Source of the DNA: Candidatus Saccharimonadota bacterium
GTDB taxonomy: Bacteria; Patescibacteriota; Saccharimonadia; Saccharimonadales; Saccharimonadaceae
Assembly (NCBI GenBank): GCA_017406985.1
Contig: JAFQXL010000003.1
Location: 1 to 64,000, forward strand
Direction: 5' to 3'
Length of the DNA stretch: 64,000 bases
Below, one piece after another: positions 15,381 to 63,347 of this stretch. A program made the translations under genes and the position numbers. The stretch's first letter is position 1; the number at the start of each line of letters is the position of its first letter. The notes under the pieces are model-generated. The model had not been told where the DNA came from and made no database searches. It was given only the letters and a program-made list of their open reading frames with translations.

Positions 15381-15750
15381 CAGGACCTGTCCAAAAGCTA
15401 ACTACGTCTCTAATTTCGGCCGGAGTCATTAGCTCTTTATTTAAAATCTCAACTACTCCATAATCTTCAAAATCTTGCGCCGAACCGACAAAAAGCGACG
15501 TTATAAGCGCAATTGGAATCCTTGCCGTCTCTTTATAGCTAACGATTTCATTTAAGAAAGTAAAGCCGTCCGGACCGTCTAATAAGATATCTAGTAAAAT
15601 CATTCTTGGTTTTTCCCTGTCGATTGCGGAAATCGCGGAAATCGCATTATGATAAACCTTTACTCTCGCCATGCCTTTTAAGTATTTTTCATAAAGACTA
15701 CACATGTCGCTATCGTCTTCGATTACATAGACTAAAGGTAACTTTTTCAT
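15367..15750 (-). CDS. single-domain response regulator
   Basis: 127 aa CheY-like receiver without an output domain. The acidic pocket is EDD (residues 11-13), the phospho-acceptor is Asp54 in ILLDILLD, the switch Thr/Ser lies in LITSLF (84-85), and the conserved Lys105 is in LNKEL. With no DNA-binding domain it must act by protein contact or as a phosphate relay. It overlaps the kinase stop by one base and recO by 14 bp. Confidence 0.88.
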   Translation of the reverse strand: MKKLPLVYVIEDDSDMCSLYEKYLKGMARVKVYHNAISAISAIDREKPRMILLDILLDGPDGFTFLNEIVSYKETARIPIALITSLFVGSAQDFEDYGVVEILNKELMTPAEIRDVVSFWTGPDVKF

Positions 15751-16433
15751 TAGAATAAACTCGCTTGTTTAGAAATTGGAAGCCTTAAAATAAAACTCGT
15801 TCCGTCTCGATGTCTTATCGCCGAAACTTCGCCGTTCATAAATCGCGCAAACTTCGAAGCGATATAAAGCCCTAGTCCGCTCGAACCAGGACGCATCGCA
15901 ATCGACGTCGGTTCCAAAATCCATCCGTGTTTTAGCTCCTTCCAGATATTAACCGGAAGTGCCGGCCCAAAATCGCGAACCGAAACTTCAATCTTATCTC
16001 CTCTATCTCGGACAGACAATTCCGAACGCGTCTCTTCGTCAGAATATCTTAATGAATTTGAACAAAAGTTATAAATCACTGAATATAACATTTCCCGGTT
16101 CGCCGTCGCTAGTTTTGAACGGTTCGTATATTTCTCTCTTAAGCTTTTATGATTTTCTCGATAAAGATATCTTAATTCTCTTGCGACATCGTCACAAACT
16201 CCGCGAACCGAAACCGGTTCAAGCGTAAATAATCCATCTTCAAGTCGAGCAACTTTCGTTAAATCGTTAACCTGTCTCATTGCTCGCTCTGTCGTCGAAA
16301 TAATTTTTTCTTTCGCAAACTTAACCGAATCTATATCTTCCGGCTCAATCGAAAGCGCAAGCTGACGTGTTAAAGCTAATGGGCTTTTTAGCTCATGCGC
16401 AACTACAAAAACTCCGTCAACCTCCTTCGCCAT
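15750..16433 (-). CDS. minimal cytoplasmic sensor histidine kinase
   Basis: 227 aa. There is no transmembrane segment, PAS or GAF domain: the protein begins almost directly at the dimerisation helix with His13 in VVAHELKSPLA. The HATPase domain has the N box (YNFCSNSLRYSD), G1 (VRDFGPAL) and G2 (GSSGLGLY). It is therefore a core kinase whose input must come from a partner or from a soluble signal. It is the first gene of the operon with the receiver and recO, read from a leaderless -10. Confidence 0.88.
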   Translation of the reverse strand: MAKEVDGVFVVAHELKSPLALTRQLALSIEPEDIDSVKFAKEKIISTTERAMRQVNDLTKVARLEDGLFTLEPVSVRGVCDDVARELRYLYRENHKSLREKYTNRSKLATANREMLYSVIYNFCSNSLRYSDEETRSELSVRDRGDKIEVSVRDFGPALPVNIWKELKHGWILEPTSIAMRPGSSGLGLYIASKFARFMNGEVSAIRHRDGTSFILRLPISKQASLF

Positions 16434-16441
16434 ATAATCTT

Positions 16442-16447
16442 ATTATA
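16442..16447 (-). promoter_or_regulatory. leaderless extended -10 of the kinase operon
   Basis: TGATATAAT on the minus strand, with the hexamer ending 8 nt before the kinase ATG. It lies 40 nt downstream of the hairpin at 16487-16602. Confidence 0.6.
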
Positions 16448-16486
16448 TCACATCTTTTCTCGGTTCGAAGCGGGATTATCAACAAA

Positions 16487-16602
16487 CTGGTTATTCGTGG
16501 AATAAGTCGCTTAGATTAGTGTTTTCTCGGAGTGCCGCGCTATTATTGATAGAGCAAGCTCCGAAAAACGCTAAGATAAGCGACTTAGACACGAATAACT
16601 AG
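16487..16602 (-). other. long stop-codon-overlapping hairpin, copy A
   Basis: An imperfect inverted repeat of 116 nt fills most of the gap between the kinase operon and the gene ending at 16599. From the outside in: GTTATTCGTG/CACGAATAAC (10 bp), TAAGTCGCTTA/TAAGCGACTTA (11 bp), a GA/GA internal loop, then TTAGTGTTTT paired with AAAACGCTAA and CGGAG/CTCCG, ending in a small GCTAT/ATAG hairpin. The CTAG at the right end contains the TAG stop of the minus-strand gene. No U-tract follows on the minus strand, so it is not an ordinary terminator. Its inner 64 nt (16514-16577) match 58460-58523 without gaps. Confidence 0.85.
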
Positions 16603-17405
16603 GCGTTGAAGCGCATGGTACCGAGAACGCGGTAAAAATCGTCGTTAAACAACATCGCGTCCGTCTGGATTAGCGCTGTTTTATCGCGAATCTTAAAGAT
16701 ACAAACAATTCCCTGTAACCCCGAGTTAAGTTCTCCTCGATAAACATCGACGTTCGTTCCATTAACAATTGTCGTCGAAACCGTCATTAAGTTATCTTGG
16801 ACTTTTGCAGTATACTCTTTCTTAACTTCGTCCGTTAAAATATTCACAATTGAAACTCGAAGCGCCATCACGGTCGTATCTTGAACAACATTAACCTGTC
16901 CAGGATTTAAATATGCGTGAAAATCTTCCGCGCGCGAAGCGTCATCCGGAACATAGACACTCCAAGTTTTTGGATATTCAAAGGTTAAAGAGCCAAAATC
17001 AGACGGCCCCGTAAAAGTCGAATAAGGGTATTTTTCTTTCTCAGCAAACTCGTCTTCGAGCGTCGTTCGAAGCTCATTTTCCGCTTTCGCTACCGCAAGA
17101 TCGATTTTCCCGTTAACATCCGTACTCGCATCTTGCCAATTTATATACATATATATAAATAGCCCTAAGAAAACTACTGTAAGAAGCGATGTAAAAATCA
17201 AACAAATTGTCTTAACTAATCCAGAACGGTCTTTCTTCGCTGGTTGCGGTCCCTGCGGAGCCATCGGCTGTCCCATCATCCCAGGTTGTCCAGGACGAAT
17301 CGGTTGCATAGGACGCGGAGGCATCTGTGGAAGTTGCCCCTGATTGTTCATATTCTGTCCGTAAGCCTGTCCATAGGCTTGTCCAAACTGCCCACTATTA
17401 TCCAT
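16599..17405 (-). CDS. single-pass membrane protein with Gln/Pro/Met-rich N-terminus
   Basis: 268 aa, function not recognised. Residues 1-58 are low-complexity (repeats of FGQAYGQAYGQ and PMQPIRPGQPGMMGQPM) and end in a basic patch (AKKDRSG). One transmembrane helix follows (about 64-88), then an extracellular domain of about 180 aa containing GSLTFEYPKTWSVYVP, a pattern seen in PsbP-like or lipoprotein-type beta domains. The cytoplasmic tail would be disordered. It is preceded by a leaderless -10 and ends inside hairpin A. A membrane-attached, surface-exposed role is inference. Confidence 0.6.
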   Translation of the reverse strand: MDNSGQFGQAYGQAYGQNMNNQGQLPQMPPRPMQPIRPGQPGMMGQPMAPQGPQPAKKDRSGLVKTICLIFTSLLTVVFLGLFIYMYINWQDASTDVNGKIDLAVAKAENELRTTLEDEFAEKEKYPYSTFTGPSDFGSLTFEYPKTWSVYVPDDASRAEDFHAYLNPGQVNVVQDTTVMALRVSIVNILTDEVKKEYTAKVQDNLMTVSTTIVNGTNVDVYRGELNSGLQGIVCIFKIRDKTALIQTDAMLFNDDFYRVLGTMRFNA

Positions 17406-44979: not shown

Positions 44980-44995
44980 GATCTACCTAGAAATT

Positions 44996-45029
44996 AAAAA
45001 TACTCTCGCGATTTCGCGAGAGTATTTTT
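44996..45029. terminator. terminator between the aquaporin and grpE genes
   Basis: Perfect 16-bp stem with a TT loop (44996-45011 with 45014-45029) and A5/T5 ends, functional in both directions. Confidence 0.95.
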
Positions 45030-45043
45030 ATATTTTAAACTTC

Positions 45044-58434: not shown

Positions 58435-58447
58435 TTTCACGGTTGTT

Positions 58448-58535
58448 CTAGACGTGCGAGATTGACATTTTCTCCGAGTCCGGCGCGATTATACATCGGC
58501 CGGACGAGGAAAAATGTTAAGATTCGTGCGTCTAG
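58448..58535 (-). other. long stop-codon-overlapping hairpin, copy B
   Basis: Imperfect inverted repeat of 88 nt. Outer stem CTAGACG/CGTCTAG contains the TAG stop of rpsA; then TTGACATTTT pairs with AAAATGTTAA, CTC with GAG and GTCCGGC with GCCGGAC, closed by a CGAT-TATAC-ATCG tip. The inner 64 nt (58460-58523) match copy A (16514-16577) at about 43 of 64 positions without gaps. Not a terminator: the terminator lies 42 nt further on. Confidence 0.85.
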
Positions 58536-59581
58536 GCGATCGTGAGGCTTATCTTTCGGCCTTCTTTATCAATATCTAGAACGGTAAAATCTTTACGTTC
58601 ATTAAGCGTAAAAACTTTCTCCGGATCGACATCGTTTCCTTCGCCAAGTTCCGAAACGTGAACAAGCGCTTCGACCGCCGGCGAAATCTGAACGAATGCA
58701 CCAAACGGAGTAATTCGGGTAACAGTTCCTTCGACCTTCGCGCCCTTCTTAAGTTTCTCAACTTCCGAAAGCCACGGATCTTCAGTTAACTGTTTCATCG
58801 AAAGACTTAAGCGTTCTTTGTCGATAGCGATAATTTTCGCTTCGATTTCGTCGCCAACCTTGACATAGTCAGATGGGTTATTAACACGTTCCCAAGAAAT
58901 CTCGGAAATATGGACTAACCCTTCGATTCCGTCGACATTGACGAATACACCAAAATCAACTACACCAGTAACCATACCTTTAACAGTATCCCCGACCGAA
59001 AGTTCCGCAAATCTAGCCGCAAGACCGTCTTTTACCGCCTCTTTTTCAGAGAAGATAAGTTTATTGTCTTTCTTATTTGCGTCTAAGATACGAACCTTAA
59101 TCTGTTTTCCGACAAGCGAGTTAAGACGTTGTAAGATTTCGTCTTTGTCCGCCGAGCCAACGCGCGGGTAGTGTTCCGCCGAAAGCTGCGAAACCGGTAA
59201 GAATCCACGGATTCCTTCATATTCAACCAGAAGTCCGCCACGGTTCGCATCACAAGGCGTAACCTCAACGATCTCTTCCGCCTCAAGTTTAGCCTGGATT
59301 TCGTCCCAGCCTTTATCTTTAACTGCTTTACGAAGTGAAAGTAGAACATATCCATCTTCCATCTCTGCGTCGATTACCGAAGCCGTAACTTCCTGCCCGA
59401 CTTCAAGATTTCGAGCATAAGAAGCTTCACGACGTGGAACAAGTCCGACGCCTTTTGCCCCTAAATCGATTAAAATTTCGTGTTTCTTAACAGATAACAC
59501 TACGCCATCAACGGTATCTCCCGCGACAGCTTGTTTGATAGATTCACCCTCAGAAGCGAGGAGTTCATCAAATTTTGACAT
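58532..59581 (-). CDS. rpsA: ribosomal protein bS1, four-domain form
   Basis: 349 aa with four S1 (OB) repeats, against six in E. coli. Repeat starts: GDTVDGVVLSVKKHEILIDL, IVEVTPCDANRGGLLVEYEG, VGDTVKGMVTGVVDFGVFVN and KVEGTVTRITPFGAFVQI. It binds mRNA and helps initiation, especially on leaders without a Shine-Dalgarno sequence. It has a long leader with its own hairpin and a GAAGGAAGG ribosome binding site. The stop codon forms the base of hairpin B. Confidence 0.94.
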   Translation of the reverse strand: MSKFDELLASEGESIKQAVAGDTVDGVVLSVKKHEILIDLGAKGVGLVPRREASYARNLEVGQEVTASVIDAEMEDGYVLLSLRKAVKDKGWDEIQAKLEAEEIVEVTPCDANRGGLLVEYEGIRGFLPVSQLSAEHYPRVGSADKDEILQRLNSLVGKQIKVRILDANKKDNKLIFSEKEAVKDGLAARFAELSVGDTVKGMVTGVVDFGVFVNVDGIEGLVHISEISWERVNNPSDYVKVGDEIEAKIIAIDKERLSLSMKQLTEDPWLSEVEKLKKGAKVEGTVTRITPFGAFVQISPAVEALVHVSELGEGNDVDPEKVFTLNERKDFTVLDIDKEGRKISLTIA

Positions 59582-63220: not shown

Positions 63221-63233
63221 TTGAATCTTGAGC

Positions 63234-63253
63234 AAAAAAATGCCCTATTGGGC
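63234..63253 (-). terminator. terminator of the tRNA-Ile/tRNA-Ala unit
   Basis: GCCC/GGGC stem (63242-63245 with 63250-63253), TATT loop, and seven T on the minus strand (63234-63240). Confidence 0.75.
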
Positions 63254-63270
63254 GATTTTAACCTAAATTA

Positions 63271-63347
63271 TGGTGGAGCAACAGGGATTCAAACCCTGGA
63301 CCTCCGCCTTGCAAAGGCGGCGCTCTAATCAGCTGAGCTATTGCCCC
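63271..63347 (-). tRNA. tRNA-Ala (anticodon TGC)
   Basis: 77 nt: acceptor GGGGCAA/TTGCTCC with one G-T pair, anticodon arm CCGCC-TTTGCAA-GGCGG, T arm CAGGG/CCCTG, encoded CCA. It is 5 nt downstream of tRNA-Ile. Confidence 0.97.

Follow-up and report, generated by a model that had tools for sequence, protein, structure and literature searches.

Within the 64,000-nt stretch of Candidatus Saccharimonadota DNA analyzed here (the window), a long palindrome, copy A (16487-16602, - strand), lies between a membrane-protein gene and a histidine kinase gene, raising the question of what it is and how it came to be there. Its "sense" direction is the - strand, the direction of the upstream membrane-protein gene (16599-17405, - strand, 268 aa), whose stop codon sits in the outer stem; the downstream kinase gene (15750-16433, - strand, 227 aa) has orthologs in 20/20 other same-genus genomes searched. 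The initial annotation had described nested stems of 10, 11 and about 16 bp with a GA/GA loop, beginning in the TAG stop and ending about 40 nt before the -10 of a leaderless kinase promoter, and all of these features are present. The outer stem (16490-16499 / 16590-16599) comprises 10 exact base pairs and continues into the TAG stop (+ strand 16599-16601), followed inward by a middle stem of 11 bp (16503-16513 / 16577-16587), a symmetric GA/GA internal loop (16514-16515 / 16575-16576) and an inner stem of ~16-17 bp, TTAGTGTTTT-(bulged C)-TCGGAG. The inner stem is topped by the apical hairpin GCGCTATTATTGATAGAGC, which belongs to the conserved apical hairpin of the repeat described below (16535-16560, - strand; family consensus on the + strand GAAGCGCTATTAYTGATAGAGCRAG; alignments A3 and A5). 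Folding of 16460-16630 gave -82.1 kcal/mol against -42.0 +/- 3.8 for shuffled sequences (z = -10.7), a value equaled by 0 of 200 shuffles.

The gap between copy A and the kinase -10 (TATAAT, extended TGTGATATAAT, 16442-16447, - strand, 8 nt before the ATG at 16433) measures 39 nt, and much of it is occupied by the decayed remnant of a solo right half-copy, distal to the upstream gene (about 16455-16481, - strand), in which TTTTCTCGGTTCGAAGCG is identical to copy C. The leaderless kinase promoter itself (16433-16452), with its extended, TGTGNTATAAT-like -10 a few bases before the ATG, is kept in most same-genus genomes aligned.

Copy A is a member of a dispersed family. Its claimed second copy proved to be a homologous hairpin: copy B (about 58440-58547, - strand; z = -11.2) lies at the rpsA stop codon, before an ordinary terminator. 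The homology of A and B therefore stands, and the count of two does not: the covariance-model search revealed 10 copies in the organism's own 731-kb genome (G000), where strongly diverged copies may have escaped the model, in addition to half-copies that had gone unnoticed. DNA search alone shows 2-3 copies in this genome, among them copy C (G000:C1:36135-36240), which was located with copy A as query and is flanked by an ftsL-like gene and, on the opposite strand, a tRNA-Phe. The covariance model was needed for the rest. This model was built from an alignment of 11 sequences after a DNA search of relatives had supplied eight more homologues, and copy A scores 100.4 bits with it (CM R1). Another strong, near-perfect palindrome of the window, with 24-nt arms and 2 nt between them (44988-45037), is unrelated to the repeat by the searches made.

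In all, 98 distinct copies were collected, full copies measuring ~105-120 nt. Other genomes yield up to 7-9 model matches, and about half of the same-genus genomes sampled carry matches. Among the 295 genomes of the order that were scanned, strong matches come solely from two genera within a single family; one further match is marginal. A 22-base core pattern searched against GTDB genomes returned 27 stretches, all from Candidatus Saccharibacteria and mostly from the ruminant gut. IMG/VR contains no exact match to the core, and a viral carrier of the repeat was rejected on this basis. The literature searched on Saccharibacteria palindromic repeats and tRNA-linked palindromes, with subscription journals mostly outside its coverage, yielded nothing describing such a repeat. 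We conclude that this is a real, lineage-restricted palindromic repeat that is apparently previously undescribed.

Alignment of 58 copies revealed that 96.8% of paired cells hold standard pairs and that in 28 of the 34 pairs both partners have changed; neither any of 500 shuffles nor any slid version of the alignment came near this pairing. The parts that vary little are the T/A runs, the GA/GA loop, the bulged C and the GAAGCGC..GAGCGAG core hairpin. The arms vary yet pair, and the outer ends of the repeat differ between copies.

Comparison of the same locus in relatives, where the initial annotation expected the hairpin to be present or absent as a unit, bore this out: none of the relatives examined has copy A at the orthologous position. 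The order of the membrane-protein and kinase genes is conserved, and in most relatives aligned the kinase starts ~15-45 nt (up to ~110) behind the end of the membrane-protein gene without a hairpin, most of these relatives having a TGTGNTATAAT-like box before the kinase ATG. Relative to such empty sites, the window carries an insertion unit of 146 nt composed of hairpin plus half-copy (16453-16598, - strand); in G020, for example, the empty site (locus L102) reads GCCTAG/TGTGCTATAATTAAGATTATG, with the 146 extra nt of the window falling at the slash. Behind rpsA, 19 relatives are without the hairpin, most having an ordinary terminator soon after the stop codon, and copy B is interposed between these two elements in the window.

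A further genus, g32, contains a 106-nt copy (L124/L125) with terminal inverted repeats ATTTGAAG..CTTCAAAT. It stands behind tRNA-Arg(cct) in G168 and behind tRNA-Val(gac) in G174 with 98% identity, between flanks that share no homology, so the element has been copied as a unit. Terminal inverted repeats, together with presence or absence as a unit at A and B, are MITE-like features; the junctions read show no clean or consistent target-site duplication. Exchange between resident copies also seems to take place. The left part of the tRNA-Ser(gct) copy (L033, G000:C3:494763-494852) is nearly identical to that of the tRNA-Ser(cga) copy (L031, G000:C3:363735-363824), its right arm resembles locus L041 of G021, and its arms no longer pair, so that it is probably a chimera from gene conversion between tRNA-Ser loci.

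The copies have a fixed polarity at gene 3′ ends. On their sense side, 57 of 98 lie directly behind a tRNA or a tRNA-like CCA end, compared with 3 that have one on the opposite side (p = 6e-14), a p-value that, like those that follow, is optimistic because the copies share ancestry and the number of independent cases is overstated. Another 14 of the 98 follow a stop codon and are read in the direction of that gene. The remaining settings include the 3′ end of 16S rRNA (L048), the vicinity of the 16S gene in opposite orientation (L056 and L075), the position behind tmRNA (L072) and positions behind an existing terminator (L026, L070 and L071). One copy (L050, in G013) sits within the RNase P RNA gene (L050:1278-1731), in a peripheral helix that is probably P12, and its sense arm scores no terminator.

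The preference for tRNA genes is matched by a property of the arm that faces them. The sense 5′ arm of the repeat reads CGCC-CATCTC-GGCG-TTTTTT or similar and is located where the tRNA terminator belongs; hairpin-free tRNAs mostly have ordinary terminators at that position. A sense-arm terminator of -4 kcal/mol or better was scored in 44 of 57 tRNA-linked copies versus 0 of 14 protein-gene copies (p = 6e-7). As an internal control, the antisense mirror arm of the same tRNA copies is weaker (median -2.0 versus -5.8, p = 8e-10). The T-run is mostly six long in tRNA copies (36/57) versus five in 14/14 protein-gene copies (p = 1e-5). The pattern of an intrinsic terminator, a GC stem-loop and then a T-run, is thus found in the tRNA-linked copies and absent from the protein-gene copies. 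Because of these contrasts between tRNA and protein-gene copies, between sense and antisense arms and between T-runs, the terminator of the tRNA copies looks maintained where it is useful. In the window, tRNA-Ala(tgc) is followed by a solo left half that looks like an ordinary terminator (TTAAAATCGCCCAATAGGGCATTTTTTT, about 63233-63273, - strand).

Copy A falls into the protein-gene class. The short terminator-like stem-loop in its 5′ arm (CGCTTATCTTAGCG-TTTTT, 16564-16582, - strand) scores weakly, at -3.4 kcal/mol with a T5 run, and pattern scanning gave no terminator at copy A. The initial proposal that the hairpin insulates the kinase operon consequently survives in part: insulation is plausible because the insertion sets 146 nt between stop codon and promoter, which in relatives lie almost side by side, and because both arms carry T-runs, but the terminator of copy A is a weak one. 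The proposal of a long hairpin at the mRNA 3′ end is supported, and the proposed stabilization of the upstream mRNA is conceivable.

Together these observations suggest that copy A is probably one of a set of dispersed, non-coding palindromic repeats spread by insertion, whose tRNA-side 5′ arm has been co-opted as a terminator and which here forms an mRNA 3′-end hairpin. The copies are homologous, their arms remain paired despite varying, and at A and B they are present or absent as units. The repeat would spread, or would have spread, by insertion with some help in trans, and insertions would survive at sites where a stop signal does no harm or is useful. Behind tRNA genes, its 5′ arm would become the terminator of the gene; behind protein genes, copy A included, it would form a strong 3′-UTR hairpin with the stop codon within the outer stem. 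Copy A would separate the membrane-protein gene from the kinase promoter, which nearly abut in most relatives. It would part the upstream mRNA from the next promoter and may shield the 3′ end of that mRNA, and its most probable effect would include keeping read-through off the leaderless kinase promoter.

An unlikely alternative to this reading of a spreading insertion arises from the half-copies. Solo right halves occupy the far side of the full copy in 23 loci, that of copy A among them, and the near side in 0. At their outer ends they match the left arm present at the locus more closely than left arms from elsewhere (p = 4e-5). Tandem half-copy stacks were observed at the right flank of L064, where two types alternate as a higher-order unit, and at the left flank of L149. 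Such one-sided stacks reflect either tandem duplication of right halves or right arms remade from left arms. Under the latter alternative, fold-back (template-switch) synthesis at the central hairpin would regenerate the right arm again and again from the left arm, which lies next to the gene; older right arms would be pushed outward, and the left arm would primarily be a tRNA terminator. The perfect arms would then not be kept by selection on a hairpin, and much of the covariation would therefore represent copying instead of RNA selection. The exclusive placement of the solo right halves, their match to the own-locus left arm, and arms that differ across loci and pair within a locus are all consistent with this process; so are some tRNA-Tyr and tRNA-Leu(gag) copies with a right flank like an inverted tRNA T-arm, although over all loci this likeness is not significant (p = 0.15). 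An extension of the palindrome into the tRNA body was set aside on the same footing, being visible in some Tyr and Leu(gag) copies and not significant overall (p = 0.15). Similar stacks, however, also arise if right halves are simply duplicated in tandem, the arrival of a conserved core at unrelated loci is left unexplained, and the wobble excess described below is unexpected under perfect re-copying. We accordingly give little credence to the repeat being a polar, self-renewing palindrome with its left arm kept and domesticated as a tRNA terminator, its right arm re-copied and a stack left behind.

The strand asymmetry of the repeat raises a second alternative. The whole element folds better on the antisense (+) strand in 92 of 98 copies, by ~9 kcal/mol on average, and wobbles on that strand comprise 132 GU versus 30 AC. 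Both features count against the reading of an inserted repeat that we prefer, because a purely sense-strand RNA function predicts neither, and the bias appears to leave room for a role of the + strand as RNA or as single-stranded DNA. A structured regulatory or small RNA transcribed from the + strand, antisense to the upstream gene, would account for the better fold, for the 132:30 excess of G.U over A.C and for the strong covariation, with the purine-rich internal loops of that strand (the GA/GA loop and a GAA/GA loop) and the bulged C as putative protein- or ligand-binding sites. The wobble excess is nevertheless dominated by a few inherited columns (13 leaning GU, 8 leaning AC); the copies sit at gene 3′ ends and face no fixed gene on the other side, tRNA-hairpin-tRNA arrangements on one strand included; nearly half of the same-genus genomes sampled are without the repeat; and no Rfam family corresponds to it, Rfam 15 giving no match at gathering score for the hairpins of the window. 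Such an RNA is thus quite improbable. The earlier suggestion of an independent small RNA finds no support either, given the lack of an Rfam match and a location that tracks gene 3′ ends, and, as the evidence stands, the hairpin itself does not qualify as a novel type of RNA.

A third alternative concerns tRNA 3′ ends, which are usually discussed as sites of large integrative elements. Direct repeats of tRNA 3′ ends were seen 70-200 nt downstream of the tRNA at tRNA-Leu(gag) in L157 (G168) and L165 (G174), as well as at L145, L053, L041 and L153, some enclosing an inverted T-arm-like stretch; they look like old attachment sites. The hairpins could then be boundary pieces of integrative elements recombining at tRNA 3′ ends, each hairpin being an element end that restores the tRNA terminator. 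Several copies adjoin such repeats: at tRNA-Leu(gag), the G168 element stands directly behind one and its sister G174 has another sequence there, and the region behind tRNA-Phe differs wholly between the two genomes, the hairpin being in G168 only. This origin is nonetheless hard to credit for copies A and B and the 14 of 98 copies at stop codons without a tRNA, for the copy inside the RNase P RNA gene, and for a genome with 10 copies versus a single tyrosine recombinase; we consider it very doubtful. That single recombinase, presumably Xer, is also the ground on which a tRNA-type integrase was rejected as the mover of the repeat.

Searches for a Y1 transposase, a reverse transcriptase and a tyrosine recombinase revealed no mobilizing enzyme. 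A reverse transcriptase was rejected as the driver: it is encoded in 23 of 36 same-genus genomes but does not track the repeat, and G016, G029 and G035, with 7-8 model matches apiece, encode none. The own genome holds two reverse transcriptase genes of ~380 aa (G000:C1:39146-39859 and G000:C3:64239-64877), one of them ~3 kb from copy C. These genes, perhaps diversity-generating retroelements, are frequent in the genus, yet among 24 sampled genera they occur in just one other. A REP-type repeat moved by RAYT or another Y1 (HUH) transposase, with the + strand hairpin as its single-stranded recognition site, would fit a palindrome that lies outside genes, at their 3′ ends, keeps an extrahelical base conserved and folds better on the + strand, but is extremely improbable. 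RAYT/REP identity was rejected, as PF01797 (Y1) gave no match in G000 or in same-genus genomes, those strongly bearing the hairpin included; the one exception, G024, is an assembly with 7% contamination whose own match to the hairpin is weak.

The inserted repeat that we favor has several parallels by description. Rickettsia palindromic elements measure ~100-150 nt, occur in a reduced genome in and next to genes, RNA genes included, and are best known for in-frame insertion into proteins. The likeness lies in size, genome reduction and sites that include RNA genes; unlike them, the repeat described here keeps a fixed polarity and occupies the 3′ ends of genes, tRNA genes for the most part. REP/BIME repeats are extragenic palindromes with many copies at gene 3′ ends, where they act as mRNA stabilizers and attenuators (PMC2267715, PMC12306157). 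They share with the present repeat an extragenic, palindromic, multicopy nature and a location at gene 3′ ends, but REPs are 20-60 nt with a conserved foot tetranucleotide, whereas this repeat is 105-120 nt with variable outer ends, prefers tRNA 3′ ends, has a built-in terminator arm and, within the genus, occurs in genomes that lack a Y1 transposase. Enterobacterial RU (ERIC-like) MITE-type repeats are ~100-170 nt, non-coding and mobile, and occupy many intergenic regions (PMC2759123). Both are small non-coding, mobile-type sequences of similar length, and terminator use behind tRNAs and one-sided half-copy stacks distinguish the repeat here. Inverted DNA-uptake sequences are likewise dispersed repeats whose inverted pairs act as a terminator at gene ends (cited in PMC2267715), but those are 9-12 bases long and serve DNA uptake, whereas the present repeat is a structured 105-120-nt palindrome with its own core.

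The repeat is a new variant among small mobile palindromes (REP-, RPE- and MITE-like), notable for its tRNA 3′ ends, its context-dependent terminator and its one-sided stacks. Within one Saccharibacteria family with reduced genomes, a 0.1-kb palindrome has colonized gene 3′ ends, being terminator-like in the tRNA context and not in the mRNA context, with half-copy stacks on one side. If our reading is true, the family would offer a concrete, countable system for the spread and domestication of small palindromes, and it would carry a caution that strong "covariation" may arise by arm copying and not by RNA function.
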